From assembly GCA_031260665.1 (NCBI GenBank), contig JAISLD010000036.1, positions 1-64,000 on the forward strand: a stretch of DNA of 64,000 nucleotides. Reading direction: 5' to 3'. The notes beneath the pieces are model-generated. The model searched no databases. It saw nothing but the letters and a program-made list of their open reading frames with translations, and had not been told where the DNA came from. This document shows, one piece after another, positions 1 through 19,068 of this stretch. This DNA comes from Oscillospiraceae bacterium (lineage in GTDB: Bacteria > Bacillota > Clostridia > Oscillospirales > Ruminococcaceae). The stretch's first letter is position 1. The number at the start of each line of letters is the position of its first letter. Both the position numbers and the translations under genes were made by a program.

Positions 1-2
1 AT

Positions 3-341
3 TACAACAGCCTTTTGAAAAAGGTCACGGTGTCGGACAACAAGGCGAAGCTCTTGGGTCTTGGCTACGAGGAAGCTCTTGCTGGCGAAACCGCCGAAGC
101 TATGACGAACGGCGAACTCGACAAGGTTTTCGCAAATCAGAAGAAACACCTTGAATCCCTCGAAAAGAAAATTCGTGCCGATGTTCTGAAAGACACGCCT
201 AAACCCGGTAAAGATACTGTCCCCGGCGCAGTTGATTATCAGAAGAAAATCGAAGAAGCGCAGAAAAATGGGGACATGAGTGCGGCGGCGTACTATACGA
301 GACTTGCCGCACAAGAAGAAGCAACGCCCCCCACCACTTAA
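3..341 (+). CDS. Phage scaffold / minor structural protein (GP20-like), 5' truncated by window edge
   Basis: Open frame continues to the window start (YNSLLKKVTVSDNKAKLL...); charged, helical; directly upstream of the major capsid gene. Confidence 0.55.
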   Translation, partial: YNSLLKKVTVSDNKAKLLGLGYEEALAGETAEAMTNGELDKVFANQKKHLESLEKKIRADVLKDTPKPGKDTVPGAVDYQKKIEEAQKNGDMSAAAYYTRLAAQEEATPPTT

Positions 342-365
342 TTTTGAAAAGGAGAGTTGAAAGAT

Positions 366-1394
366 ATGGCAGACGTTTTGGCTACCAGCTTTGGAGTATT
401 GAATTACTCCGGTATGCTCTTTAACAAGGGCAACATTCGCACTCCCTTGAGTGCAATCATCGGTTCTCGTGCAAAAACCACTAACCATGTGGAATTCATT
501 ACCGGGCAGGAGTACACCTCCGGCGGCGGTGAACAGCCGAGCATTTCCGAGAACGCTTCTCTTACTGCTCCCGAAGCTACGGTTGTAACTCGTGAGCAGA
601 AAACCAACGTCACTCAGATTTTCATGGAAGCCGTTGGCGTTTCTTATGCCAAGCAGAGCAACATGGGTACTCTGTCCGGCGTGAACATTGCAAGTCAACA
701 GGCCAACCCCATCAACGAGCTTGACTTCCAAGTAGCCGCAAAAATGCAGAAGGTGAATCGTGACATTGAGTACACCTTCATCAATGGTGTTTTCAACAAA
801 GCAACCACTGACGCTACGGTGAACAAGACTCGTGGTCTCGTTACCGCTATCACTACCAACACCAAGGCAATGGGGTCTAAGCCCCTCGGTCTGTGGGATA
901 TTGCCGACATGGTGAAGAAAATCTACGGTGCAAATGCCCCTACAGATGGTCTTTGCCTGTGGTGTGACGCTACCACGCTGTTTCAGATTAACGCTGACGC
1001 TACGAACAACGGTCTTTCCGTAGTTCCTGCTTCTCGTGAAATCAACGGTATCGCCCTGTCCAGTGTAGTCACTCCTATCGGCGTGGTTTACCTGTTCCTT
1101 GGCGAGTTCCTTCCTGCCGGAACTGCTCTGTTGCTGAACCTCGGCGTTATCGCCCCTGTGTATCAGCCTGTTCCCGGTAAGGGCAATTTCTTCCTTGAGC
1201 CGCTGGCTAAGACTGGTGCTGGTGAAAAGTATCAGCTTTTCGGTCAGATTGGTCTCGACCACGGGCCGGAATGGTATCACGGTAAATTCACTGGCATTGC
1301 TCAGACCTTCACCGCTCCTACCTACAGCCGTAAGGTCTTCATTGCCAACGATTCCGATAACCCTGTCAACACCAAGGAAGTCACCGCTGGCTAA
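366..1394 (+). CDS. Phage major capsid protein (SU10-like / DUF5309-type)
   Basis: MADVLATSFGVLNYSG...; ~340 aa, follows scaffold, precedes head-tail connector genes; ATG at 366 rather than 357. Confidence 0.75.
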   Translation: MADVLATSFGVLNYSGMLFNKGNIRTPLSAIIGSRAKTTNHVEFITGQEYTSGGGEQPSISENASLTAPEATVVTREQKTNVTQIFMEAVGVSYAKQSNMGTLSGVNIASQQANPINELDFQVAAKMQKVNRDIEYTFINGVFNKATTDATVNKTRGLVTAITTNTKAMGSKPLGLWDIADMVKKIYGANAPTDGLCLWCDATTLFQINADATNNGLSVVPASREINGIALSSVVTPIGVVYLFLGEFLPAGTALLLNLGVIAPVYQPVPGKGNFFLEPLAKTGAGEKYQLFGQIGLDHGPEWYHGKFTGIAQTFTAPTYSRKVFIANDSDNPVNTKEVTAG

Positions 1395-1419
1395 TAAACG
1401 ATAAAGGAGGTACACAGTC

Positions 1420-1758
1420 ATGAACGCAACTGAAAAACTCGCTATGCTCAAAGTCCTTGTAGACGTTAAAGGAGATACGCAGGATTTGGCTCTGACTGTG
1501 TACCTTGCTTTAGCTGGAAAGAAAATTATCAACAAGGCGTTTCCGTATGACTCCACACAGACCGAAGTACCGTCCCGATATGATTTCCTTCAATGCGAAA
1601 TCGCCGCCTATCTTTGGAACAAACGAGGTGCGGAAGGTGAGACTTCTCACAGTGAAAACGGTGTAAGCCGTTCTTACGAAAACGCAGATGTACCCTCCTC
1701 CATGCTGAAAGAAATCGTACCGTACTGCGGTTCGATTCGGGAGGTGGCGAGAGAATGA
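1420..1758 (+). CDS. Phage head-tail connector protein
   Basis: 112 aa ORF directly after capsid gene; RBS aaggagg upstream; synteny. Confidence 0.55.
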   Translation: MNATEKLAMLKVLVDVKGDTQDLALTVYLALAGKKIINKAFPYDSTQTEVPSRYDFLQCEIAAYLWNKRGAEGETSHSENGVSRSYENADVPSSMLKEIVPYCGSIREVARE

Positions 1759-2159
1759 GGTGCATGAGCAGGAATAAGGTCACTTTTTTCTACGCTCTTT
1801 ATGAGCGCAAGGAAGCAATCACGGACGATTATGGGAACACGACTGGCGAGTTTGAGGTAATCTACGGAAATCCGTTGGAGTATTCGGCAAATATCTCAGC
1901 CGCCAAAGGAGAAACACAGACTCGGCAATTCGGAGAAAACGAGGTCTATGACAAAGTTATTGTGGCGGACAACACCGTCCCTCCGATTGACGAGTATTCG
2001 GTCTTGTGGATAGACACCTTACCACAGCTTGACGAGACCGGGGCATTGGCTACGGACGAGACCGGGAAGGTAATTACTCCCTATGACTACATCGTGACAA
2101 AAGTTGCTCGTAGCTTGAACAGCGTTTCCATTGCTGTAAGCAAGGTGAAAGTCCAATGA
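1755..2159 (+). CDS. Phage head-closure / structural protein
   Basis: 134 aa, overlaps neighbours by 4 nt, position in morphogenesis operon. Confidence 0.45.
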   Translation: MRCMSRNKVTFFYALYERKEAITDDYGNTTGEFEVIYGNPLEYSANISAAKGETQTRQFGENEVYDKVIVADNTVPPIDEYSVLWIDTLPQLDETGALATDETGKVITPYDYIVTKVARSLNSVSIAVSKVKVQ

Positions 2160-2677
2160 AAAAGACGGTTATCAGCTTCGGATTGTCTGAGCGAGAAATC
2201 GGCAAGGCAATTAAGGAACTTGAGCAGTACAAGCAGGAACTCATTCGCAAGACTGCTCTCCTTCGGGAGAAGGTTGCGGATAGGATTGCGAGTCTTGCTC
2301 GTAGTGGATTCAATGGTGCGGTTGTGGACGATGTGTTGAAAGGCGGCGTAAAAACAGCGCAAGTCGATGTTTCGCTGAACAACACAAATGATGTCTCACT
2401 GGTAATCGCAAACGGCGAAGACGCTATATGGGTAGAATTTGGAGCTGGCGTATTTCACAACGGTTCTGCCGGGTCTTCTCCTCACCCGGAAGGTTCTGCT
2501 CTCGGATTCACGATTGGCGGCTACGGCAAAGGCATGGGTAAAAAAGAAGTTTGGGGGTACTACGAGGGAGACGAACTTCGACTCACTCACGGTACACCAG
2601 CGATTATGCCGATGTACAATGCCGTGAAAACAGTCTGTGACGAGATAGCTGATATTGCAAGGGAGGTATTTGAATGA
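2156..2677 (+). CDS. HK97 gp10-like tail/neck protein
   Basis: 173 aa with ...IWVEFGAGVFHN...GTPAIMPMYNAV..., typical of the HK97-gp10 family. Confidence 0.65.
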   Translation: MKKTVISFGLSEREIGKAIKELEQYKQELIRKTALLREKVADRIASLARSGFNGAVVDDVLKGGVKTAQVDVSLNNTNDVSLVIANGEDAIWVEFGAGVFHNGSAGSSPHPEGSALGFTIGGYGKGMGKKEVWGYYEGDELRLTHGTPAIMPMYNAVKTVCDEIADIAREVFE

Positions 2678-3078
2678 TTGACGTAGAGACTGAGCTTTTT
2701 TCAGAGGTGTCAAGTAAAGTCCGGGAGAGATACCCGAACATCAACATGACAGGCGAGTACGTCAAGTCACCTTCTGATTTCCCTTGCGTGTCACTGGTTG
2801 AGGTGGACAATGCAACATTCCGCAATACGCAGACAACCGAAAGTCAAGAAAATCATGTGGTGGTCATGTACGAGCTGAATGTCTATTCCAACAAAACCAA
2901 AGGCAAAAAGGCTGAGTGTAAAGAGATAGTAGCGTTCATTGATGAACTGTTGATGGAGCTGAATTTCACAAGAATTATGCTTGAGCCTGTGCCAAACCAA
3001 GACAATGCAACAATTTACCGTATGCTTGGGCGTTACCGGGCAATCGTTTCAAAAAACAAAACCATCTATAGGAGGTAA
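2674..3078 (+). CDS. Phage tail completion/terminator-like protein
   Basis: 134 aa between gp10-like and major tail gene; synteny. Confidence 0.5.
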   Translation: MIDVETELFSEVSSKVRERYPNINMTGEYVKSPSDFPCVSLVEVDNATFRNTQTTESQENHVVVMYELNVYSNKTKGKKAECKEIVAFIDELLMELNFTRIMLEPVPNQDNATIYRMLGRYRAIVSKNKTIYRR

Positions 3079-3083
3079 AAATC

Positions 3084-3509
3084 ATGGCAATTTCGACTTA
3101 TAAGATTTTCCTTATGAAGAAGGGCGAGGGTAGCACATACGCCAAGCTCATTAACATTAAGGATTTTCCCGATTTGGGCGGTTCGCCCGAAATGCTTGAA
3201 ACTACCACCCTGTCTGACAAAATGCAGACGTATATTCCGGGTATTCAGTCCCTTGACGCTCTTGAGTTTACCGCCAACTACACCAAGGAGGATTACACCA
3301 CGCTCAAAGCTCTTGAAGGTGTTGAGCATGAGTACGCCGTTTGGTTCGGCGGCACGGAAACTGGCGGCGTGATTACGCCCACTGGCTCGGACGGTAAGTT
3401 TGAGTTCAAAGGTCAGCTTTCGGCGTTCCCTGTTGGCGGCGGCGTGAATGAGGTAGTTGACATGACAGTTACTATCGCTCCTTCCACCCCCATCGAACTC
3501 GCAGAGTAA
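3084..3509 (+). CDS. Phage major tail (tube) protein
   Basis: 141 aa, MAISTYKIFLMKKGEGSTYAKLINIKDFPDLGGSPEMLETTTLSD..., typical major tail protein N-terminus and position. Confidence 0.65.
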   Translation: MAISTYKIFLMKKGEGSTYAKLINIKDFPDLGGSPEMLETTTLSDKMQTYIPGIQSLDALEFTANYTKEDYTTLKALEGVEHEYAVWFGGTETGGVITPTGSDGKFEFKGQLSAFPVGGGVNEVVDMTVTIAPSTPIELAE

Positions 3510-3532
3510 AAAAATTATAGGAGGACAGTAAA

Positions 3533-3862
3533 ATGGCAAAGCAGTTGAGTTTCAATTTTGAGGATAAGGAATACACCTTGGAGTTCACTCGTAGGACAGT
3601 TACGGAAATGGAGAAGAAAGGGTTTGTTGCTTCGGACATCACCGATAAGCCCATGACCACTCTCCCGGCTCTGTTCGCTGGTGCATTTCTTGCACACCAC
3701 AGGTTCGTCAAGGAAGACGTAATCAATGACATCTATTCCAAACTTACCAAGAAGGAAGACCTTATCGGCAAGCTGGCTGAAATGTACAACGAACCGATTA
3801 TGGCTCTTGTGCAAGAGCCGGAGGAAGACAAGGGAAACGTGAACTGGACAGTGACTTGGTAA
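3533..3862 (+). CDS. Tail assembly chaperone, upstream ORF (gpG-like)
   Basis: 109 aa, between major tail and tape measure genes; followed by -1 frame ORF. Confidence 0.65.
   Translation: MAKQLSFNFEDKEYTLEFTRRTVTEMEKKGFVASDITDKPMTTLPALFAGAFLAHHRFVKEDVINDIYSKLTKKEDLIGKLAEMYNEPIMALVQEPEEDKGNVNWTVTW
3832..3838 (+). promoter_or_regulatory. Putative -1 programmed ribosomal frameshift heptamer G GGA AAC
   Basis: Zero-frame codons GGA(3833-3835) AAC(3836-3838) preceded by G; XXXYYYZ form; no stop in the -1 frame after it. Confidence 0.65.
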
Positions 3863-4299
3863 GTGACTCGCTGTCCTCCACTGAGGGGAGTGGTGGTGTA
3901 ACTGCCACTGCTCCCCTCAAAACTTACACCGAGAAATTCAATGAGTTGTTCCCCTATTACCTCTCCATCGGTATGACCGAGGAGCAGTATTGGGACAAGG
4001 ACAACCAACTCGTGATTGCTTACAGGAAAGCGGACGAACTGAGAATGGCTCGGAAAAATCAAGAGCTGTGGCTACAGGGAGCTTATTTCTATGACGCTCT
4101 GTGCCGGGTGTCTCCAATCCTTCATGCCTTTGCTAAAAAAGGAACGAAGCCCTCCCCATATCTTGCGGAAGCCTATGCTTTGACCGAAAAGCAAGCAGAA
4201 CTCGTGCAGGAGGAAAAATCGAAGAAAGTCTTTGATAAGGGCAAAAAAATGATGGAAGGATTCATGGCACAGCATAATCAAAAATTCGGAAGGAAGTGA
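3838..4299 (+). CDS. Tail assembly chaperone, downstream ORF (gpGT-like extension), probably made by -1 frameshift
   Basis: ORF in -1 frame relative to the upstream chaperone, no ATG/RBS at its start; open frame continuous from slippery site 3832-3838. Confidence 0.6.
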   Translation, partial: RELDSDLVSDSLSSTEGSGGVTATAPLKTYTEKFNELFPYYLSIGMTEEQYWDKDNQLVIAYRKADELRMARKNQELWLQGAYFYDALCRVSPILHAFAKKGTKPSPYLAEAYALTEKQAELVQEEKSKKVFDKGKKMMEGFMAQHNQKFGRK

Positions 4300-4304
4300 G
4301 GAAA

Positions 4305-7300
4305 ATGTCTACGACAATCGAATCGTTACAGGTTGAGGTTCAATCCAGTGCGACCTCTGCGGTTAGTGGAATAGACGCACTTGCTTCCTCGCTTGGTAAG
4401 TTAAAGTCCGCAACCAAGGGCGGCGTTGGGTTGACCGCTGTCGCAAAACAGCTTACCACTCTGAACAACGCCTTGAACGGTATCAGTGGTGCAAATGCAG
4501 ACAATCTGAACAAACTCGCACAGGGTTTGCAGACACTTTCCTCGTGTGGGAATCTCAAGCTATCGTCTTCTGTTCCCACACAGATAACCAATATCGGCAC
4601 GGCGGTCAAGTCTCTCAGTGGGACTGATTTCTCCGTACTTTCTCGCCTTGCCAATTCTCTTACGCCTTTAGAGAATGTCGGCAAGTCGAACTTGAACAGT
4701 TTCATATCGCAGTTGCAGAGACTACCTCAAGCGGTACAGGCACTCAATTCTGTAAACATGGGAGGATTGAGCAGTAAACTTGCGGAGCTTGTATCGGCAC
4801 TGAGTCAGCTTTCCAACATGGGTAAGAACAATTTGACATCGTTCGTCACTCAGTTGAACAAGATTCCAAAACTGATGGAGAATTTGAAAAATGTAGACAT
4901 GAGGACGCTCTACAATCAAATTCAGTCGCTTGTTAGAGTGTTCACACCATTGGCTACTCAGATGGAAAAGGTGTCCGCTGGTTTTGCGGCTTTCCCCACT
5001 CGTATTCAAAGACTTATTGCGGACAATGAGAAACTGGCAACCTCTAACGCCAAAACAGGCACGAGCTATGTGAACCTTGCGGCAAAAATCGGTATAGCGT
5101 ATGTTGCGCTTACGAGAATTGCTCGTGTTGTTGCGTCCTTTATCGTGAAGTCGAACCAGTACGTTGAGGATTTGAACCTGTTCACCGCTTCAATGGGTAA
5201 GTACGCAGATGAAGCTAAGAAATACGCAGAGAGCGTGGCCGACATCATTGGTATTGACCCGGCGGAATGGCTGAGAAATCAAGGTATCTTCATGACACTT
5301 GCAACAGGCTTTTGCGTTGTGAGTGACAGAGCGTACATCATGAGTCAGAACTTGACTCAGCTCGGCTATGACATTTCGTCTTTTTTCAATATCAGCTTTG
5401 CTGATTCCATGCAGAAGCTACAGTCCGGCATTGCTGGCGAACTTGAACCTCTCCGTAGGCTCGGCTATGACCTTTCAGTAGCTCGACTGCAACAGGAAGC
5501 ATACACGCTCGGTATCAAGAAGAAAATCTCGGCAATGACACAGGCTGAAAAAGCAGAGTTGCGCTACTACGCCATCATGACACAGGTCACAGTCGCTCAA
5601 GGCGATATGGCTCGTACATTGATTGCTCCTGCTAATCAGATTCGTATTTTGCAAGCACAGGTTACTCAGTGCGCTCGTGCGCTTGGTAATATCTTTATCC
5701 CGGCTCTGAACGCTGTCCTTCCTTACGCTATCGCTTTGGCGAAGGTGATTAGAATGGTGGCGGACGTTATCTCAAGCCTGTTCGGGTTTTCTCTCCCGGA
5801 GATAGACTACAGCGGCTTGAATGGTGCGGCTGGTGGTGCAGACGATGTAGCTAATGGTCTTGGTGACGCAACCAAGAAAGCAAAGGAACTCAAAAAAGCT
5901 CTAATTGGCATTGACGAACTTAACGTTCTCAGTCCGCCGGAGGATTCCGACAGCGGTACTGGTATCGGCGGAGCTGGCGGTCTTGGATTTGAACTGCCTA
6001 CTTATGACTTCATCAATGACGCAGTAACCAGCAAAATTGATGAAATCGTGCAGAAGATGAAAGAATGGCTCGGCATAGCCGATGGAATTGATTCTTGGGC
6101 AGAGTTCTTCGACACTCGTTTAGGTAAGATTCTGTTGGCCGTAGGTGCAATCGGTGCAGGACTTGCCGCATGGAAGATTGCCAAGGGAATTACCGACTTC
6201 TTCAAGACTATCTCCTCGTTCAAGGGATTTAATATCTCCTTGGCTTCGATTGGCGGTCTTGGCTTGCTTTCTGACCTCAACGAGTTCATCAAGTATTTCA
6301 AGGACTTCGTAGAGAATGGGGCTACCTTCCAAAACGTAACAGGAATGATAAGTGAGTTTGCTGGTGCGATTGGTGACTCCATGATTATCTTAGGCAACGT
6401 CAAAGTTGGCGGTGCTTTGAAAGTGGCACAGGGTATCGGTGAAATTGCAGTCGCAATTAAGGACATTTCTGAGAGTGGAGTGAATTGGGACAATGCCAAT
6501 ACCGCTATCAGAGGTTTGACGAATATTGCAATCGGTATCGGTGTCTTCACTGGCAATCTCAAGGTTGCCGCTTGGGGCTTGGCAATACAGGGCTTCACCG
6601 CCATCATTACCGAAATCGGTGATAACTGGAACGCTATAAAACAAGGCGATTGGAGTGGAGTGGACGTTGCTACGCTGGCTATCGGTGCGCTGGAAGTATT
6701 GGGCGGACTGGCTATTGCGCTGGACGTGTTCTCCAAGCTCAAGGGTGTAGTTTCAATCGGTAAGTCGGCAGAAGCGGTTAAGACCGTATCTGACGCTACA
6801 GGCAATCTGAGCAACACCGTAAGTACAGGTCTTTCCCCGAACCTTTCCACTCTTACTAAAAACCTTGGTATGGGGATTGTGATTGTCGCAGAGGTTGCGG
6901 CGGCGGCATTGCTTATCACAGGCGCAATTATCCTGCTCGGAATGGAGCTGGAACAGGTCGGTATCGCTTGGCAACCTGTCATTGACAACGGCGGCACAGT
7001 TGCGGCGGCAATGGGTATCGGAGTCGGTATCTTAGCGGCAATCGGCGTTGTGACCGCTCTCTTAGGCTCTGTAGGTACACCGCTTATTGTAAACATTGCT
7101 CTCGGCGTGGCTATCTTGGCAGAGCTGGGTATCGCCGCTGGTCTCTTTTTAATAGAGATTTGGGCGATAGGAAAGGGTTTAGACGAAATTGGCAAGGCAT
7201 GGCAACCTGTACTGGACAATGGTGACACCATTGCGAAAGGTATTGGACTTGGCACTGCTTTACTGGTTGGGATAGGGGTTGTCACTGCCGCTCTCGGCGT

Positions 7301-8807
7301 GGCTACCGTGGCAAGCGCAGGACTGTTGCCTTTGGCTATTGGTCTTGGTACTGCTATCCTCGTGGAGCTGGCTATAGCCGTGGTGCTGTTCATCGAAAGT
7401 CTTGTGGCTGTGGCAAAAGAACTTGGAAACAACCTTGCCCCGGCTCTCGATGATTTGAACGGAAAACTCCCCGGTTTGACTACCGATATGTCCGACTTCG
7501 TAGACTTCATGACTGCGTTTGCCGGAGAGGTTGTCAGATATACAGGAGCGAGTGCTGTCGCTGGATTGTCCGCAACAATCGACACGATTATCGGTTGGTT
7601 CACTCAAGACCCTATCGAGAAAATGAAGAACGATGTAGAGAAAATCGCAGGACAGGTGAAAGAGTTGAACGACAAGCTGAATGTAGCTGTCCCCGAACTG
7701 AAAACCGCAGTCGGTTTGTTGGCAGAATATGTTGACTTTGTTGATAAGCTCGGCACTGTAGCCGGGTCAAGTGGAACGGTGAAACTCTCCGAAGGTCTGA
7801 AAGTGAACTTGAAGACTGTAGGTGAAAACATCGTGACAGGGTTCAACGAAGGTGTCAAAAACAAGTATTCCACGATTCAGACCACGATAACAAATTGGGG
7901 TAGTGATGTTCAAAAGTGGTTCAACAATTCCTCTTTCGGTGGCGTGAACAAGGAGAAATTCGCCACCTATGCAAACGACATCGTGAACGGCTTCAAAGAT
8001 AAGATTTCCTCGTCCTCCGGCAACACCAAGAGCAGTATTACCTCTTGGGCTACCAACCTAAAAACGTGGTTCACAAGCAGTAGCTTCGGCGGAATAAACA
8101 AGGAGACCTTCGAGAAGTACGCAAACGACATCGTGAACGGCTTCAAGAATGGCATTGTTGGTCAGTCCGAAAGTGCAAAGAGTGGAATGACTACTTGGGC
8201 TAATAATACCAAGAAATACTTCACCGACATAGTATCGTCCAGCACTTTCTATGACATTGCGAAAGATGTCATTAAGGGCTTCAACAACGGTATCAATGAT
8301 TTCTACGACCTCTCTCGTTCCTATATGCGTAGATGGGCGAATGACGCAAAAGAGACCTTTAAGGAAGCTCTGGATTCCAATTCTCCGTCCAAAGTCTTCG
8401 AGCAAATAGGCGGAGATACAGTCCTCGGCTACAACCTCGGCATATCCCGGATTGGCAAGACCACGAGAGGTGTTGTGAACACTTGGGCGGACTCTTTTGT
8501 GAGCGTCAGCCCGGTCATGAGTTTCGCCGTGGACACCTCTGCATTGAGGTACTACAGCAGTGATTCCTTCGCCAAGTCCGTCTCTGCAAATGTCACGAGC
8601 AATAGTTCCGTTGCTGTCTCCGGCTTTAAGGAGGGCATGGAGGAATTCTATCGTGAGTACATCGAGCCTACGATGTCTCAAATGGCAGAGGATATGCGCC
8701 GACAGGCGGACAAGAACGAGCAGACCATCGTCCAAGTTGGCAACCGTGTCGTATCGGACGCTGTGACTACACAACAGAAAGCCAACGGATATGTGTTTGC
8801 AAAGTAA
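4305..8807 (+). CDS. Phage tail tape measure protein
   Basis: ~1500 aa, longest ORF of the module, helical N-terminus, hydrophobic repeats, follows tail chaperones. Confidence 0.9.
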   Translation: MSTTIESLQVEVQSSATSAVSGIDALASSLGKLKSATKGGVGLTAVAKQLTTLNNALNGISGANADNLNKLAQGLQTLSSCGNLKLSSSVPTQITNIGTAVKSLSGTDFSVLSRLANSLTPLENVGKSNLNSFISQLQRLPQAVQALNSVNMGGLSSKLAELVSALSQLSNMGKNNLTSFVTQLNKIPKLMENLKNVDMRTLYNQIQSLVRVFTPLATQMEKVSAGFAAFPTRIQRLIADNEKLATSNAKTGTSYVNLAAKIGIAYVALTRIARVVASFIVKSNQYVEDLNLFTASMGKYADEAKKYAESVADIIGIDPAEWLRNQGIFMTLATGFCVVSDRAYIMSQNLTQLGYDISSFFNISFADSMQKLQSGIAGELEPLRRLGYDLSVARLQQEAYTLGIKKKISAMTQAEKAELRYYAIMTQVTVAQGDMARTLIAPANQIRILQAQVTQCARALGNIFIPALNAVLPYAIALAKVIRMVADVISSLFGFSLPEIDYSGLNGAAGGADDVANGLGDATKKAKELKKALIGIDELNVLSPPEDSDSGTGIGGAGGLGFELPTYDFINDAVTSKIDEIVQKMKEWLGIADGIDSWAEFFDTRLGKILLAVGAIGAGLAAWKIAKGITDFFKTISSFKGFNISLASIGGLGLLSDLNEFIKYFKDFVENGATFQNVTGMISEFAGAIGDSMIILGNVKVGGALKVAQGIGEIAVAIKDISESGVNWDNANTAIRGLTNIAIGIGVFTGNLKVAAWGLAIQGFTAIITEIGDNWNAIKQGDWSGVDVATLAIGALEVLGGLAIALDVFSKLKGVVSIGKSAEAVKTVSDATGNLSNTVSTGLSPNLSTLTKNLGMGIVIVAEVAAAALLITGAIILLGMELEQVGIAWQPVIDNGGTVAAAMGIGVGILAAIGVVTALLGSVGTPLIVNIALGVAILAELGIAAGLFLIEIWAIGKGLDEIGKAWQPVLDNGDTIAKGIGLGTALLVGIGVVTAALGVATVASAGLLPLAIGLGTAILVELAIAVVLFIESLVAVAKELGNNLAPALDDLNGKLPGLTTDMSDFVDFMTAFAGEVVRYTGASAVAGLSATIDTIIGWFTQDPIEKMKNDVEKIAGQVKELNDKLNVAVPELKTAVGLLAEYVDFVDKLGTVAGSSGTVKLSEGLKVNLKTVGENIVTGFNEGVKNKYSTIQTTITNWGSDVQKWFNNSSFGGVNKEKFATYANDIVNGFKDKISSSSGNTKSSITSWATNLKTWFTSSSFGGINKETFEKYANDIVNGFKNGIVGQSESAKSGMTTWANNTKKYFTDIVSSSTFYDIAKDVIKGFNNGINDFYDLSRSYMRRWANDAKETFKEALDSNSPSKVFEQIGGDTVLGYNLGISRIGKTTRGVVNTWADSFVSVSPVMSFAVDTSALRYYSSDSFAKSVSANVTSNSSVAVSGFKEGMEEFYREYIEPTMSQMAEDMRRQADKNEQTIVQVGNRVVSDAVTTQQKANGYVFAK

Positions 8808-12555: not shown

Positions 12556-14487
12556 ATGGGTTGGGCAGAAGCAAAATGGACGGTTGACAGTATCTTGCAG
12601 AAGATAGGTCAAGCTCCGAACAATATGAGAGCTTTTACAGCTTTCCCACTTTCTGCGACAAGTCTTGGGTTGCGCTTCTTAGAACCCGAAGACAGCTATG
12701 CGGACGGTAATCTTATTTGTTCTGTGAAGGGTGTCATGGTTCGCATGAGTACCACGGCTTATCCTACGAACATCAACGAAGGTACGCTTGTGGTTGACAA
12801 TCAAAACCTTGGAGCATATGAGACTGAGCCGTTTGTTATCGAAAATCTTACTGAGAGTACGGCTTACTACTTCTCGGCGTTCCCTTACTCCGTACAGGGA
12901 GTTTACAATTTGTCGAGCAACTCAAGTAACCGTTCCTCGGCTTCTCCTGCCGCCGGAGAAGCAGTCACGGTCAATGTAACCATTGATGATACGACAGGCT
13001 TCACCAGCGTCACGGTGACTTGTGTCAACGAGACTGACCCGGCGGCTACGTCAAGTAAAACCATCACTCCGACACTCAGCACAGCAAACTTTGTTGTTCC
13101 CATTGGTGACACCTATCATATCGGGTACGGTGCGGCGGACGGTTATTCCAAGCCGAACAACACGGCTCCCAAGGTCTCTGTGGCTGGTGCAAGCACGACC
13201 TATGAAGCGACTTATTACTATTTCTCCGCAACCATCAATGTCACTTACCCTGTGGGCGCAACCGTGACCTGTGTGTGCGAATCTACAAGCTATACCGCTC
13301 CTACCACTACTGGTAGCTATGCGTTTATAGTCCATAAGGTCGGCACTTGGGTTATCACTGCAACGCAAGGCTCAAACGTAGCGTCCACCTCTGTCGCAAT
13401 CACAACGGACGGTCAGACTGCCACCGTGGAACTTTCTTTCGTGAAAATCTACGGTATCAGCCGTGACATTACTTCGTCCTCTCCTGTTTGGGCGAGAACG
13501 GACAGTGCCGTTGGGAAGACCGCTACTGCTTCTGTGGGCGTAACCGCCGGGGTAAGTGATTTCGACATCTGTGAGCCTTGGAGCGGTATCGTGAGAGAAA
13601 CGCTTGCAAGCGGTGACGTGATGGTGAAGATTCCGAAATTCTACTTCCAACGCTACAAAGAGGGCAATGTTGAACATATCAGAATCGCTGATAAGTCCAC
13701 CCAAGGATTCACAGTTCACCCTCTATTCAAACACGCAGGAGTGGAAAGAGACTTCGCCTATGTCGGTGCTTACAAGACTTCCAGCAATAACAAATCTGTT
13801 TCCGGGGCAAGTCCGCAAGCGTCTCAAACAAGGGCAGTGTTCCGTACAAATGCGAAAGCAAAGGGTAGCGGTTGGGGATTGATTGACATTGCGGCTCTGT
13901 CTGCGATTCAAATGCTTATTCTCGTGGAGTTCGCAACGAACAATGTGCAGACCGCAATCGGTAGAGGATATTGCGACAGCAACAGTGCCGCACTCAGCGT
14001 AGGTTCTTGCAATACTGTTCCGAACCTCACTGGTAGACCTTCCGGCACGGACAGTAAGACCGATGTCGTATGGAGAGGTATCGAAGGGCTGTGGGGCAAT
14101 GTTTGGGAATGGGTAGACGGTGTGAACTGGAATGACGGTACTTATTATGTCTGCAATGACCCTTCCAAGTATGCAGATGATACCGCAACCAACTACACAC
14201 AGCTTTCCTTCGCAGGAGCTACGAACTGGTCTTCCTCCTATATCACCACCGAGGGGCTTGACACAGGTAGCAATGCTCATATCATGCTTCCTTCCGCCGC
14301 CGGAAGCGGTAGCGAGACCACATATCAGTGTGACGCTTGCTGGTCTTCTACAGGTTGGCGGGTGTTCCAACGCGGCGGTGCTTGGGTTGATGGGTCGGCG
14401 TGCGGTCTGTTTGCGGCTCATTTGGGCAACGCTTCCTCGACTTCCGGCGTGTACGTTGGCTCTCGCCTGCTTTATTTGCCCTCCTAA
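12556..14487 (+). CDS. DGR variable protein: tail fibre/adhesin with C-terminal FGE-sulfatase/C-type-lectin-like domain
   Basis: 643 aa; Ig-like N-terminal region; GLWGNVWEWVDG motif of FGE/CLec folds; C-terminal VR with TR counterpart downstream. Confidence 0.85.
   Translation: MGWAEAKWTVDSILQKIGQAPNNMRAFTAFPLSATSLGLRFLEPEDSYADGNLICSVKGVMVRMSTTAYPTNINEGTLVVDNQNLGAYETEPFVIENLTESTAYYFSAFPYSVQGVYNLSSNSSNRSSASPAAGEAVTVNVTIDDTTGFTSVTVTCVNETDPAATSSKTITPTLSTANFVVPIGDTYHIGYGAADGYSKPNNTAPKVSVAGASTTYEATYYYFSATINVTYPVGATVTCVCESTSYTAPTTTGSYAFIVHKVGTWVITATQGSNVASTSVAITTDGQTATVELSFVKIYGISRDITSSSPVWARTDSAVGKTATASVGVTAGVSDFDICEPWSGIVRETLASGDVMVKIPKFYFQRYKEGNVEHIRIADKSTQGFTVHPLFKHAGVERDFAYVGAYKTSSNNKSVSGASPQASQTRAVFRTNAKAKGSGWGLIDIAALSAIQMLILVEFATNNVQTAIGRGYCDSNSAALSVGSCNTVPNLTGRPSGTDSKTDVVWRGIEGLWGNVWEWVDGVNWNDGTYYVCNDPSKYADDTATNYTQLSFAGATNWSSSYITTEGLDTGSNAHIMLPSAAGSGSETTYQCDACWSSTGWRVFQRGGAWVDGSACGLFAAHLGNASSTSGVYVGSRLLYLPS
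14354..14473 (+). repeat. DGR variable repeat (VR)
   Basis: Aligns without gaps to TR 14567-14686; in 14362-14473, 21 of 22 differences fall at TR adenines. Confidence 0.93.
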
Positions 14488-14493
14488 GGGGGT

Positions 14494-14513
14494 GTGGGGG
14501 ATTTCTCCCCCAC
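14494..14513 (+). other. DGR hairpin/cruciform downstream of VR (8-bp stem, 4-nt loop)
   Basis: GTGGGGGA-TTTC-TCCCCCAC perfect inverted repeat, ~20 nt after VR end, just past the stop codon. Confidence 0.75.
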
Positions 14514-14566
14514 AAGTGGGTTGAGCAAATGAAAGAGAAGAACTCATGAGCAACAAGGCGAACAGT

Positions 14567-14686
14567 AAAAGCGAGTGTTCCAACACGGCGGTAATTGGAA
14601 TAATGGGTCGAAATGCGGTCTGTTTACGGCTAATTTGAACAACACTTCCTCGAATTCCAACACGAACATTGGCTCTCGCCTACTTT
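14567..14686 (+). repeat. DGR template repeat (TR)
   Basis: Adenine-rich counterpart of VR (AAT/AAC codons in VR frame), non-coding, located between target gene and RT. Confidence 0.93.
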
Positions 14687-14801
14687 TGTTAAAGCGTAAA
14701 AACCATAAAATACTGTTTCGCCGTACCCATTGGTAAAAAATAGTTTGGAGGGATAGGGTCAGTAGGTTCATTCTCGAAAGCCCTATAAGAGACAAAAGCA
14801 G

Positions 14802-15899
14802 ATGAAAAGATTTGGATTCCTATACGAACAGATAGTCTCGGTTGAAAACTGCAAAGCGGCTATTATAAATGCTTCTGCGAAGAAACGAAGACGAAAGTCT
14901 GTGCAGGACATCACGAGCAATTTGGATTACTATGCTTCCGATTTATCGAAGCGGTTGATTGCTTTGGATTTCCTCACACCCTACAGAACTCGAATGATAA
15001 GGGACGGTCTTTCGGGGAAACAGAGGGAGCTACAAATACCTTCCTTTTACCCCGACCAATGCGCTCACCACGCAATCGTACAGATACTTCAACCTATCTT
15101 TATGAAATCGTCTTACCATTGGAGTTGCGCAAATATACCCAACAGGGGAATAGACCGTGCTTGCAAAGGCGTGGAGAGAGCCACGGTGAGAGACACCAAA
15201 CACGCAAAATACTGCGTGAAGATGGACATTCACAAATTCTATCCCTCTATTCCGCACGACAAACTCAAGGCTCGTCTTCGAGAGAAAATCAAGGACGAGA
15301 AAGCACTACAGATTATCGACAAGGTAATTGACTCCCATTCTCCGGGAATTCCAATCGGGAATTACACCTCGCCGTGGTTGGCGGAGTTCTATCTTCAACC
15401 GTTGGACTGGTTCATCAAACAGACGCTTGGGGTAAGACACTATATCCGCTATGCCGATGATTTGGTGCTAATAGGCAGTAACAAGCGAGAACTGCGAAAA
15501 GCAATGAACGCCATCATGGAGTTCATAAAGGACTTGGGCATGGAAGTGAAGCACGATTACCAGTTGTTTCGGATTCAGCGAAATTGCAAAGAGAAGAAAC
15601 AGCGCAAAGGTCGAAAGATTGACTTCGTTGGTAGGTGCTTCGGGATAGGTTTTACCACTATCCGAAAGAGACGTGCGCTGGCTCTTATGAGACAGAGCAG
15701 ATATATTCAGAAGCTCCAACGGACAAATCGTCCTGTGCCGTACAGAGTGGCTTCCGGCTTCTTGTCTCGATGTGCCTGTTTCAAACACACCAACTCGCAA
15801 GCTATGAAGAAAAAATACTACGACACTGTGAACATCAAAAAGCTAAAGGAGGTAATCAGCAATGAGAGTAAGAGGAAATGTCTCGCCCAATGCGCTTGA
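14802..15899 (+). CDS. DGR reverse transcriptase
   Basis: 365 aa with RT motifs VKMDIHKFYPSIPH, GIPIGNYTSPWLAEFYL, YIRYADDLVLIG; ~115 nt after TR. Confidence 0.92.
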   Translation: MKRFGFLYEQIVSVENCKAAIINASAKKRRRKSVQDITSNLDYYASDLSKRLIALDFLTPYRTRMIRDGLSGKQRELQIPSFYPDQCAHHAIVQILQPIFMKSSYHWSCANIPNRGIDRACKGVERATVRDTKHAKYCVKMDIHKFYPSIPHDKLKARLREKIKDEKALQIIDKVIDSHSPGIPIGNYTSPWLAEFYLQPLDWFIKQTLGVRHYIRYADDLVLIGSNKRELRKAMNAIMEFIKDLGMEVKHDYQLFRIQRNCKEKKQRKGRKIDFVGRCFGIGFTTIRKRRALALMRQSRYIQKLQRTNRPVPYRVASGFLSRCACFKHTNSQAMKKKYYDTVNIKKLKEVISNESKRKCLAQCA

Positions 15900-16200
15900 C
15901 ATCGAACCGTATGCCCCTACGTTGGGGTATGTGGAGGTCAGACTTCGTGAGAATATCAATGAACTCTCCGTATCTGACGAAATGACCGAGACCCCCATCA
16001 CAATGTACGAATATGACGAGTACACGTTCGTTCTGAGGGAAAAGGAGGGTTTACAGGCGGACATCGAAGCCAATATGGACGATTGGCTTACGACAGGCCG
16101 CACCTTGGAGGTTGACCCAATGGCAACGCTATATGTAACTGCGAGAGTCAGTGCCATTGACGAATACACGGAGGAACTTATCAAGGAGGGATTACTGTAA
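15862..16200 (+). CDS. Phage hypothetical protein
   Basis: 112 aa, RBS aaaggagg, overlaps RT 3' end. Confidence 0.5.
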   Translation: MRVRGNVSPNALDIEPYAPTLGYVEVRLRENINELSVSDEMTETPITMYEYDEYTFVLREKEGLQADIEANMDDWLTTGRTLEVDPMATLYVTARVSAIDEYTEELIKEGLL

Positions 16201-16715: not shown

Positions 16716-18026
16716 ATGGCTTTCACAAACAGTTCCTTAGTGACGTATAAACGCCTTACGTCACACTGTACGAAGAACCGAAACCATGCTATCGACACTA
16801 TTACGATTCACTGCATTGTAGGTCAATGGACAGCGAAGCAAGGTTGCGACTACTTTGCTACCACAGACCGTGACTGTTCCTCGAACTACATCGTAGGCAA
16901 GGACGGTTCAATCGGTCTCTCGGTTGAAGAAAAAGACCGTTCGTGGTGTTCTTCCTCAAGCTCCAACGACCACAGGGCAATCACTATCGAAGTTGCAAGC
17001 GACACCACTCACCCTTATGCAGTTACAGCTCAAGCGTATGCGGCACTGATTGACCTCGTGACGGACATTTGCAAGCGAAACAACATCAAAGAGTTGAAAT
17101 GGAAAGCGGACAAGTCCCTCATTGGACAGGTGGACAAGCAGAACATGACCGTTCACCGCTGGTTCGCCGCTAAAGCGTGTCCGGGTGAGTATCTGTATGA
17201 ACGGCACAGTGCGATTGCCGCAGAGGTCAACAAACGCTTGGGTACTGTAGCGAAGCCGCCTGTGGTGGTTACTCCTACTCAGCCTACGACCACCGTAGAC
17301 GTGGCGAAGACCATTTGGGACTTCTTTATCGGCAAGGGTCTCAATGCCTGTGCTGTGGCTGGTCTTATGGGTAATCTGTATGCGGAAAGTGCTTTGAAGC
17401 CTACCAATTTGCAGAACACCTATGAACAGAAGCTCGGCCTTTCCGACAGTGCCTATACACAGGCGGTGGACAATGGGTCTTATACGAACTTCGTAAAAGA
17501 TTCCGCCGGGTACGGTCTCGCTCAGTGGACATACTGGTCTCGCAAACAGGCTCTCCTCCAATACGCTCAGAAGGTCAAGAAATCTATCGGTGACTTGACT
17601 ATGCAGTTGGAGTTCTTGTGGCAGGAGCTACAGAGCTACACAAGCGTCACGAAGACGCTGAAAGCCGCTACCTCTATCCAAGTAGCGTCTGACGCTGTAC
17701 TTACAGGATATGAGCGTCCTGCCAATCAGAGTGACGCTGTGAAGGTCAAGAGGGCTGGTTACGGTAAGAAATACTACGACCAGTACGCTTCCAGCACAGC
17801 AAAGCCTACAACCCCCACAGCGTCAGTGCCGTATCTCGTGAAAGTGGACGCTTCGGTTCTCAATATCCGAAAGCAACCTACCACGAGTTCGGCCATAACG
17901 GGGGCAATCAAAGACAAGGGTGTTTATACGATTGTCGAGGAAGCAAGCGGCGCAGGAGCGACACGATGGGGTAAGCTCAAGAGCGGTGCTGGCTGGATTT
18001 CCCTCGACTACACCAAGAGGGCATAA
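16716..18026 (+). CDS. Phage endolysin: N-acetylmuramoyl-L-alanine amidase + phage lysozyme-like domain + SH3 domain
   Basis: ITIHCIVGQW...HRWFAAKACPGEYL (amidase_2); FFIGKGLNACAVAGLMGNLYAESAL...YGLAQWTYWSRK; VKVDASVLNIRKQPTTSS (SH3). Confidence 0.85.
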   Translation: MAFTNSSLVTYKRLTSHCTKNRNHAIDTITIHCIVGQWTAKQGCDYFATTDRDCSSNYIVGKDGSIGLSVEEKDRSWCSSSSSNDHRAITIEVASDTTHPYAVTAQAYAALIDLVTDICKRNNIKELKWKADKSLIGQVDKQNMTVHRWFAAKACPGEYLYERHSAIAAEVNKRLGTVAKPPVVVTPTQPTTTVDVAKTIWDFFIGKGLNACAVAGLMGNLYAESALKPTNLQNTYEQKLGLSDSAYTQAVDNGSYTNFVKDSAGYGLAQWTYWSRKQALLQYAQKVKKSIGDLTMQLEFLWQELQSYTSVTKTLKAATSIQVASDAVLTGYERPANQSDAVKVKRAGYGKKYYDQYASSTAKPTTPTASVPYLVKVDASVLNIRKQPTTSSAITGAIKDKGVYTIVEEASGAGATRWGKLKSGAGWISLDYTKRA

Positions 18027-18028
18027 CC

Positions 18029-18334
18029 GTGGGAACACGGTACAGGCGCAGGAAGAAAACACCGTTGGAGTTCTCGAAGAAGATTTTACTCTTTGCGGCT
18101 CTTGTGAACGTGGTGGTAATTGTCTTCACGATGATAATGATTTGGCGGACAAACGATTTGTCACCGTTGGCATATCTCATTCCGGCCATTGCCGCTGAGA
18201 CTGCCACAGGTACAGGTTTCTACTATGCCAAGGCGAAGGTGGAAAACCGTATCAAGCTCATGAAGCAGAATCGGATTGACCCCACGGAGAACACATTCAA
18301 CGACACTTACAACAATATAGGAGGTTTAGGATAA
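18029..18334 (+). CDS. Phage membrane protein (possible lysis accessory)
   Basis: 101 aa with two hydrophobic segments, between endolysin and holin. Confidence 0.4.
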   Translation: MGTRYRRRKKTPLEFSKKILLFAALVNVVVIVFTMIMIWRTNDLSPLAYLIPAIAAETATGTGFYYAKAKVENRIKLMKQNRIDPTENTFNDTYNNIGGLG

Positions 18335-18651
18335 TGACTATTGATTTGACACAGGTGGTAATTGCGGTACTCACACTTATTTTCGGCTGTATCTCTGCTT
18401 TTTTGATTCCGTATCTGAAAAGCAAGCTCACTGCCGAACAGCTCAGTAAGGTCAAGTTTTGGGTAAACATTGCAGTCGAAGCGGCTGAAATGATTTATGT
18501 CGGAACTGGCAGAGGGCAGGAAAAGAAAGACTACGTTCTGAAATTCTTGAACAGTAAGGGCTTCACACTCAATGTGGCTGAAATCGACAATCTCATTGAA
18601 TCGGCTGTTCTCGAACTCAAGACAAAAACAAAAGAGGAAGCAAGCGTTTAA
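18334..18651 (+). CDS. Phage holin (LLH family-like)
   Basis: 105 aa with N-terminal TM helix and KVKFWVNIAVEAAEMIY...KKDYVLKFL, typical of LLH holins. Confidence 0.65.
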   Translation: MTIDLTQVVIAVLTLIFGCISAFLIPYLKSKLTAEQLSKVKFWVNIAVEAAEMIYVGTGRGQEKKDYVLKFLNSKGFTLNVAEIDNLIESAVLELKTKTKEEASV

Positions 18652-18725: not shown

Positions 18726-19068
18726 TGGTGGAGCCGAGGAGAATCGAACTCCTGTCCGAAAATACTTCACGCGGTTTTTCTACAAGCTTAGTCAATCGTA
18801 ATCTCAGCGCACGGCAGACAAGTGACAGACCACCGTGCGAGCCGCCTTTGATAAAACGCCGCTTAAAGGCATAGGCGGCGAGGTTTGCCGTTTAGTTTAC
18901 GCCCGAATCCGTGTCAACGGCAAAGCTCGGTCGGACGCAAGCAGCCCTTAGGCTGCTTGGAGTTCTAATTTATTGTTAGCGTTTATTTGTTTTTGCCCGG
19001 ATTAAACAGACGTGCGGCTGTGCTTGCTTAACTGCGCCGGATATCCCCGTCGAAACCTTTACGGCCCC
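18726..19068 (-). ncRNA. ssrA: tmRNA
   Basis: Reverse complement begins GGGGCCGTAAAGGTTTCGACGGGGATATCC and ends GGACAGGAGTTCGATTCTCCTCGGCTCCACCA; tag ORF GCTAACAATAAATTAGAACTCCAAGCAGCCTAA. Confidence 0.95.

Follow-up and report, generated by a model that had tools for sequence, protein, structure and literature searches.

Does a pair of similar repeats at the end of a phage tail-fiber gene, followed by a gene for a reverse transcriptase (RT), constitute a working diversity-generating retroelement (DGR), the remains of one, or something unrelated to retrohoming? The question is raised by a locus in the 64,000-nucleotide stretch of DNA analyzed here (the window). The first-pass annotation had read this locus as an active DGR of a prophage that diversifies the C-type-lectin-like tip of its tail fiber. 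The features on which our analysis turns are as follows, in window coordinates.

12556..14487, + strand: target gene, whose 3′ end contains the variable repeat (VR); it codes for a 643-aa tail-fiber/receptor-binding protein
14362..14473, + strand: VR, gap-free against the template repeat (TR), with a high dN/dS where that of the gene body is low
14454..14473, + strand: probable IMH, the 3′ end of the VR and adenine-free in the VR
14479..14490, + strand: weak stem-loop, CCCT-CCTA-AGGG, at the target gene's stop codon, a short DNA fold that recurs in relatives
14493..14514, + strand: target-recognition hairpin TGTGGGGGA-TTTC-TCCCCCACA, 20 nt 3′ of the VR
14575..14686, + strand: TR, whose 3′ end is IMH*
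14687..14801, + strand: TR-RT spacer of 115 nt, equivalent by position to the BPP-1 Sp
14724..14801, + strand: Rfam RT-18 RNA (RF03021), with three covarying helices, ending at the RT start codon
14802..15899, + strand: DGR RT of 365 aa, with active site YADD and motif 4 IGNYTSP
15862..16200, + strand: acidic ORF of 112 aa that overlaps the 3′ end of the RT gene and has no family match
18726..19068, − strand: tmRNA gene (tag ANNKLELQAA) abutting phage lysis genes

The cassette proper is thus ordered target gene, hairpin, TR, spacer, and RT, all on the + strand.

The repeat pair and its target gene

The TR and the VR align without a gap over 112 of 112 positions and differ at 22 of them. Of these differences, 21 fall on TR adenines, of which there are 29 (hypergeometric P = 3e-15); the threshold that we applied for a DGR was at least 75% of mismatches at TR adenines. 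Fifteen of the adenines are changed to G, four to C, and two to T, and the sole non-adenine change is a C-to-T difference at VR position 14450. Our recomputation reproduced the alignment and the counts of the first-pass annotation, whose protein readings of the TR and the VR were exact. Two of its details stood only in part. It had extended the alignment 8 nt upstream with five more adenine substitutions; the five mismatches are indeed present at 14354-14361, but because the VR encodes there a G-W-R that is conserved in nearly all relatives, we do not regard this segment as mutagenized. It had also placed AAY codons at the variable sites, which does not hold for all of them: one is AAA, and CAC, ACG, and ACT codons are changed too. 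A separate correction concerns VR position 14469, which is G where IMH* has A (14682). The VR has G in 10 of 10 close relatives aligned, and since relatives share both the VR G and the TR A, the position marks a fixed difference between IMH and IMH*, not a product of mutagenesis. With position 14469 and the upstream extension set aside, the core tally is therefore 20 of 28 adenines changed plus one non-adenine change. In the whole 1.46-Mb draft genome the TR matched itself and a single VR.

The target protein matched the tail-protein family phrog_5302 (E 3e-65) and had no match above cut-off in Pfam or NCBIfam. The C-terminus of an AF2 model of the full-length protein was unusable (pLDDT about 30) and was replaced by a model of the C-terminal 347 aa, built from a 52-sequence alignment (pLDDT 96.3, pTM 0.95). 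When this model was searched against the PDB, the top nine fold matches were DGR variable proteins (TaqVP, Mtd variants, and TvpA), and the matches in the viral fold collection BFVD were tail collar fiber proteins. Residues 297-643 correspond to a CLec-type variable protein whose C-terminus carries the VR. The fold is shared with TaqVP of Thermus aquaticus (PDB 5vf4; E 7.5e-13) at 16% identity, TaqVP being from a bacterial DGR whereas the target is a phage tail protein. The model supports a diversified receptor-binding tip with a predicted CLec fold, and gene context and fold agree in this with the lectin-like tip originally proposed.

Comparative evidence of activity in close relatives

Comparing VRs across related prophages, as the first-pass annotation had suggested, was made possible by two pairs of contigs, each pair representing nearly the same phage in different metagenomes. 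In the pair L038/L041, the VR differed at 13 of 34 TR-adenine sites and at 0 of 92 other VR sites, with 0 differences in the 126 positions of the TR and 26 at 7401 positions elsewhere. In the pair L042/L043, the corresponding figures were 18 of 31, 0 of 83, 0 of 114, and 22 of 3346. The target proteins of these contigs are 72-74% identical to that of the window and their RTs, which belong to the same clade as the window's, 76-81% identical. Variation in the VR was confined to TR-adenine positions in both pairs, which by comparison shows the DGR to be active in these close relatives; DGR activity in phages has already been documented broadly (PMC8144416). A comparison of L036 with L037 was left out because cross-alignment of TR and VR distorts its counts, and three further relatives (L008, L009, and L010) have identical VRs and are therefore uninformative on activity.

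The window's VR follows its own TR at 25 of 25 non-adenine columns where relatives' TRs differ, and for all pairs the agreement between VR and own TR at such diagnostic columns was 1122 of 1122. Thus, the TR has been copied into the VR repeatedly in each lineage. Estimates of dN/dS were 0.06-0.08 for the RT, indicating strong purifying selection, and 0.06-0.15 for the body of the target gene versus 0.7-4.2 for the VR. Because a same-species search found no second strain carrying the window's prophage, we can only infer, as the first-pass annotation did, that this copy has diversified its VR recently.

The RT, the spacer RNA, and the post-VR hairpin

The RT is intact, and both its ORF and that of the target are open. 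It matched RVT_1 (E 4e-18) and phrog_1423 (E 1e-90), and its best match in the PDB was the reverse transcriptase 8ub7, which we take to be BPP-1 bRT; group II RTs matched more weakly. In our tree it nests among the RTs of TR/VR-bearing DGRs, within the DGR clade and with an intact YxDD, and every close relative for which upstream sequence is available has its own adenine-directed TR/VR pair. The residue equivalent to bRT R74 is kept in 107 of 107 sequences, and that equivalent to I181 is mostly I or L; both are reportedly implicated in adenine mutagenesis by Handa et al. A hallmark of about 90% of DGR RTs, though not a strictly defining one, is a motif 4 of (I/V/L)Gxxx followed by SQ. The window's RT has the IGxxx part, with SQ replaced by SP (proline at residue 191).

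The same replacement is present in 18 of 18 RTs of one clade (SH-aLRT 100), of which 17 have YADD; these are 18 sequences, several of them near-duplicates, and not independent events. Two SP RTs outside the clade (L138 and L005) represent separate gains in the tree. The DiGReF survey found variation at the last two positions of the SQ motif in 15 of 155 DGRs (PMC3521204). SQ has been proposed to set fidelity, with the glutamine behind adenine-specific infidelity (PMC3521204), and for RTs that vary here, an error of sequencing or a recent loss of activity has been suggested as a possible cause (PMC3521204, PMC4244168). In the SP clade, 277 of 499 TR adenines were changed and 11 of 1324 other positions, as compared with 712 of 1241 and 26 of 3788 in SQ relatives. 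The SP clade mutates at adenines only, as its SQ relatives do; as judged from these alignments, adenine specificity in the SP lineage does not depend on the motif-4 glutamine. The SP exceptions, earlier discounted as perhaps erroneous or inactivated (PMC3521204), are represented here by an 18-member clade that keeps full adenine specificity, and with its purifying selection and recently diverged VRs the clade provides a natural test of the role of the SQ glutamine in adenine infidelity. The proportions of G, C, and T among the changes differed marginally between SP and SQ RTs (chi-square P = 0.05), and we make no claim of an altered spectrum. The VRs of L138 and L005 are purely adenine-directed (12 of 12 and 22 of 22), and the RT of L005 has YMDN in place of YxDD.

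Just upstream of the RT, the spacer is 107-117 nt long in 17 of 17 SP-clade members that have a TR. The RT-18 match within it scored 43.8 bits against a gathering cut-off of 41.3; RT-17 matched as well, below threshold. RT-18 occupied the TR-RT interval in 18 of 20 further relatives and in 11 of 14 examined earlier, and when 399 genomes of the phylum were scanned, each of the five matches obtained lay directly 5′ of a DGR-type RT. In 30 sequences, the three helices had standard pairs in 94.3% of cells, as opposed to 66.3% after shuffling, with a covariation score of 0.80 as opposed to 0.25 (shuffled) and about 0.1 (slid). Rfam types RT-17, RT-18, and RT-4 as sRNAs only, and we found no literature that ties RT-17 or RT-18 to DGRs, the original description of these RNAs, probably Weinberg et al. 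2017, being outside the scope of our search. The slot is occupied by Rfam Phage_DGR in BPP-1 and by RT-4 in Faecalibacterium phage FP_Epona, and RT-17, RT-18, RT-4, and Phage_DGR may form one superfamily.

The BPP-1 spacer reportedly recruits the RT-Avd complex and uses one of its internal adenines to prime cDNA synthesis (PMC12875486), and by analogy RT-18 would have the same recruiting and priming role. If RT-18 were instead a separate small RNA or the leader of the RT mRNA, its sRNA typing in Rfam would be accounted for, as would its ending at the RT start codon, a leader-like place. Its recurrence between TR and RT in the two sets of relatives, the association of all five phylum-wide matches with a DGR-type RT, and the presence in that very slot of a BPP-1 RNA reported to recruit RT and prime cDNA (PMC12875486) argue otherwise, and we consider both of these readings unlikely. 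As DGR spacer RNAs, Rfam's unexplained RT-17, RT-18, and RT-4 RNAs gain a likely role. RNAs of these three types were seen in the slot just 5′ of the RT in the window and in L020, L021, L022, and L025.

The post-VR hairpin has a 9-bp GC stem and a pyrimidine-rich 4-nt loop, TTTC, and departs from a BPP-1-type hairpin (a 7-10 bp GC stem with a sense-strand GRNA loop of 4 nt) in its loop only. In the SP clade the stem is conserved, 19-21 nt after the VR. Among the window's closer relatives the loop is TTTC, TTTTC, TTCTC, or CTTT, and members further out have other sequences. Many SQ relatives have GGNCA-like 5-nt loops, and the loop of BPP-1 is GAAA. Homing of BPP-1 fell to near background when its GAAA loop was replaced by CTTT, a sequence similar to TTTC (PMC3240598). 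Given that TTTC departs from GRNA, loop recognition has probably diverged from that of BPP-1, or else the opposite strand is read. We also considered a terminator role for this hairpin and rejected it, as no T run was found.

A search for Avd with PF22296, which finds BPP-1 Avd (positive control), gave no match in this genome or in any of the relatives that we searched, though a divergent Avd could have escaped the profile. As a proxy, 23S_rRNA_IVP was uninformative, having no match even in controls. We tentatively raise the idea, which we hold to be somewhat less than an even bet, of an Avd-free phage DGR lineage in which mutagenesis, self-primed and strictly adenine-directed, requires nothing beyond the RT and RT-18 and works without the motif-4 glutamine, the hairpin loop following a non-BPP-1 rule. 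Compact cassettes of this kind, with no detected Avd, are suited to biochemistry.

Alternatives, mechanism, and related systems

Could the locus be other than a functional DGR? An ordinary duplication, in which the copy at the tail-fiber tip diverged by positive selection without retrohoming, would be in keeping with the location of the VR, since a receptor-binding domain can be expected to evolve under such selection. Selection, however, cannot limit changes to the adenine positions of the other copy (P = 3e-15), nor can it hold non-adenine columns in register with the TR (1122 of 1122), and the same-phage pairs refute this explanation, to which we give practically no weight. A group II, retron, or defense RT merely lying beside the repeats is suggested by the proline of motif 4, which is the group II/retroviral state (PMC3521204), and by the best NCBIfam matches, group II RT/maturase and Drt3a. 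Those matches are far below cut-off (102.9/300, 68.6/235, and 87.5/200 bits), whereas 8ub7 outscores the group II RTs in the PDB; the tree, too, contradicts this assignment, as do the adenine-directed pairs of the close relatives, and it is exceedingly improbable.

A decayed DGR would have the TR and VR as fossils of past activity and SP as the mark of an inactivated RT. The published view of SQ variants as errors or recent inactivations (PMC3521204, PMC4244168), the lack of a detected Avd, and a loop that is not GRNA could all be cited for it. Yet SP is fixed across an 18-member clade whose RT has a dN/dS of 0.06-0.08, new adenine-only changes separate the members of same-phage pairs that have SP RTs, the VR matches its TR perfectly at the diagnostic non-adenine columns, and the RT and target ORFs are open, so that we judge decay to be very unlikely. 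We conclude that the window holds a complete and very probably functional phage DGR. The first-pass annotation, which had noted neither the SP motif nor the RT-18 spacer nor the unusual hairpin loop, is borne out in this respect by the RT clade, the adenine direction, the CLec-like fold predicted for the target, the hairpin after the VR, and the spacer RNA; on the other side are the failure to detect Avd, which is essential in BPP-1, the TTTC loop, and the non-adenine change at 14450. The cassette is of an ordinary kind in a well-described class, and the SP lineage is a clean variant of it.

In the functional DGR that we favor, the RT (14802-15899) would read a transcript carrying the TR (14575-14686) and the RT-18 spacer, which, to judge from its position and covariation and from the BPP-1 spacer, would recruit the RT and provide the priming site. 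During cDNA synthesis misincorporation occurs only opposite template adenines, as the VR patterns show, and the cDNA would then replace the VR (14362-14473) at the IMH, with the hairpin downstream. The tail fiber, whose CLec fold is predicted with high confidence, would thereby acquire a randomized C-terminal surface for receptor binding.

With the Bordetella phage BPP-1 (mtd/avd/TR/brt) the cassette shares the order VR-TR-RT, an adenine-directed VR, a structured TR-RT spacer RNA, a GC hairpin after the VR, a CLec-fold tail target, and the equivalents of bRT R74 and I181. It differs in having no detected Avd, SP rather than SQ, an RT only about 30% identical, a spacer of the RT-18 rather than the Phage_DGR type, and TTTC rather than GAAA as the loop. 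Searching phages at the DNA level yielded nothing closely related to the cassette. A prophage DGR of Lacrimispora defluvii (RT 85% and target 75% identical) has the same layout, with RT-18 and SP/YADD, and differs from the window in its VR at adenine sites and in a 5-nt loop, TTCTC. SQ gut-phage DGRs (Lactobacillus phage LBR48 and many IMG/VR contigs) also have an RT-18 spacer, with RTs about 40% identical, and no Avd was detected in the contigs searched, as in the window; unlike it, they have the SQ motif and mostly GGNCA-like 5-nt loops. No TR/VR was visible in the LBR48 stretch.

The cassette is embedded in a phage tail and lysis block consisting of a tape measure gene (4296-8807), the tail fiber, the RT, an endolysin (16716-18026), and a holin (18334-18651). 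The ORF at 15862-16200 is probably a tail-associated gene and not an Avd. The contig starts inside phage head genes, among them a capsid-like ORF (357-1394); window positions 1-4300 showed no integrase. The prophage's left half therefore lies elsewhere or is missing, the prophage being either split across contigs or incomplete. The tmRNA gene at 18726-19068 is the probable integration site; no second copy of its 3′ end (attL) was found in the draft genome. The relative in L009 also adjoins a tmRNA.

Finally, we note that L004, from relative G082, has in addition to its main VR (800-914) what may be another VR-like copy of the TR, at 1048-1163; the resemblance is weaker there, with 34 mismatches, 26 of them at adenines.
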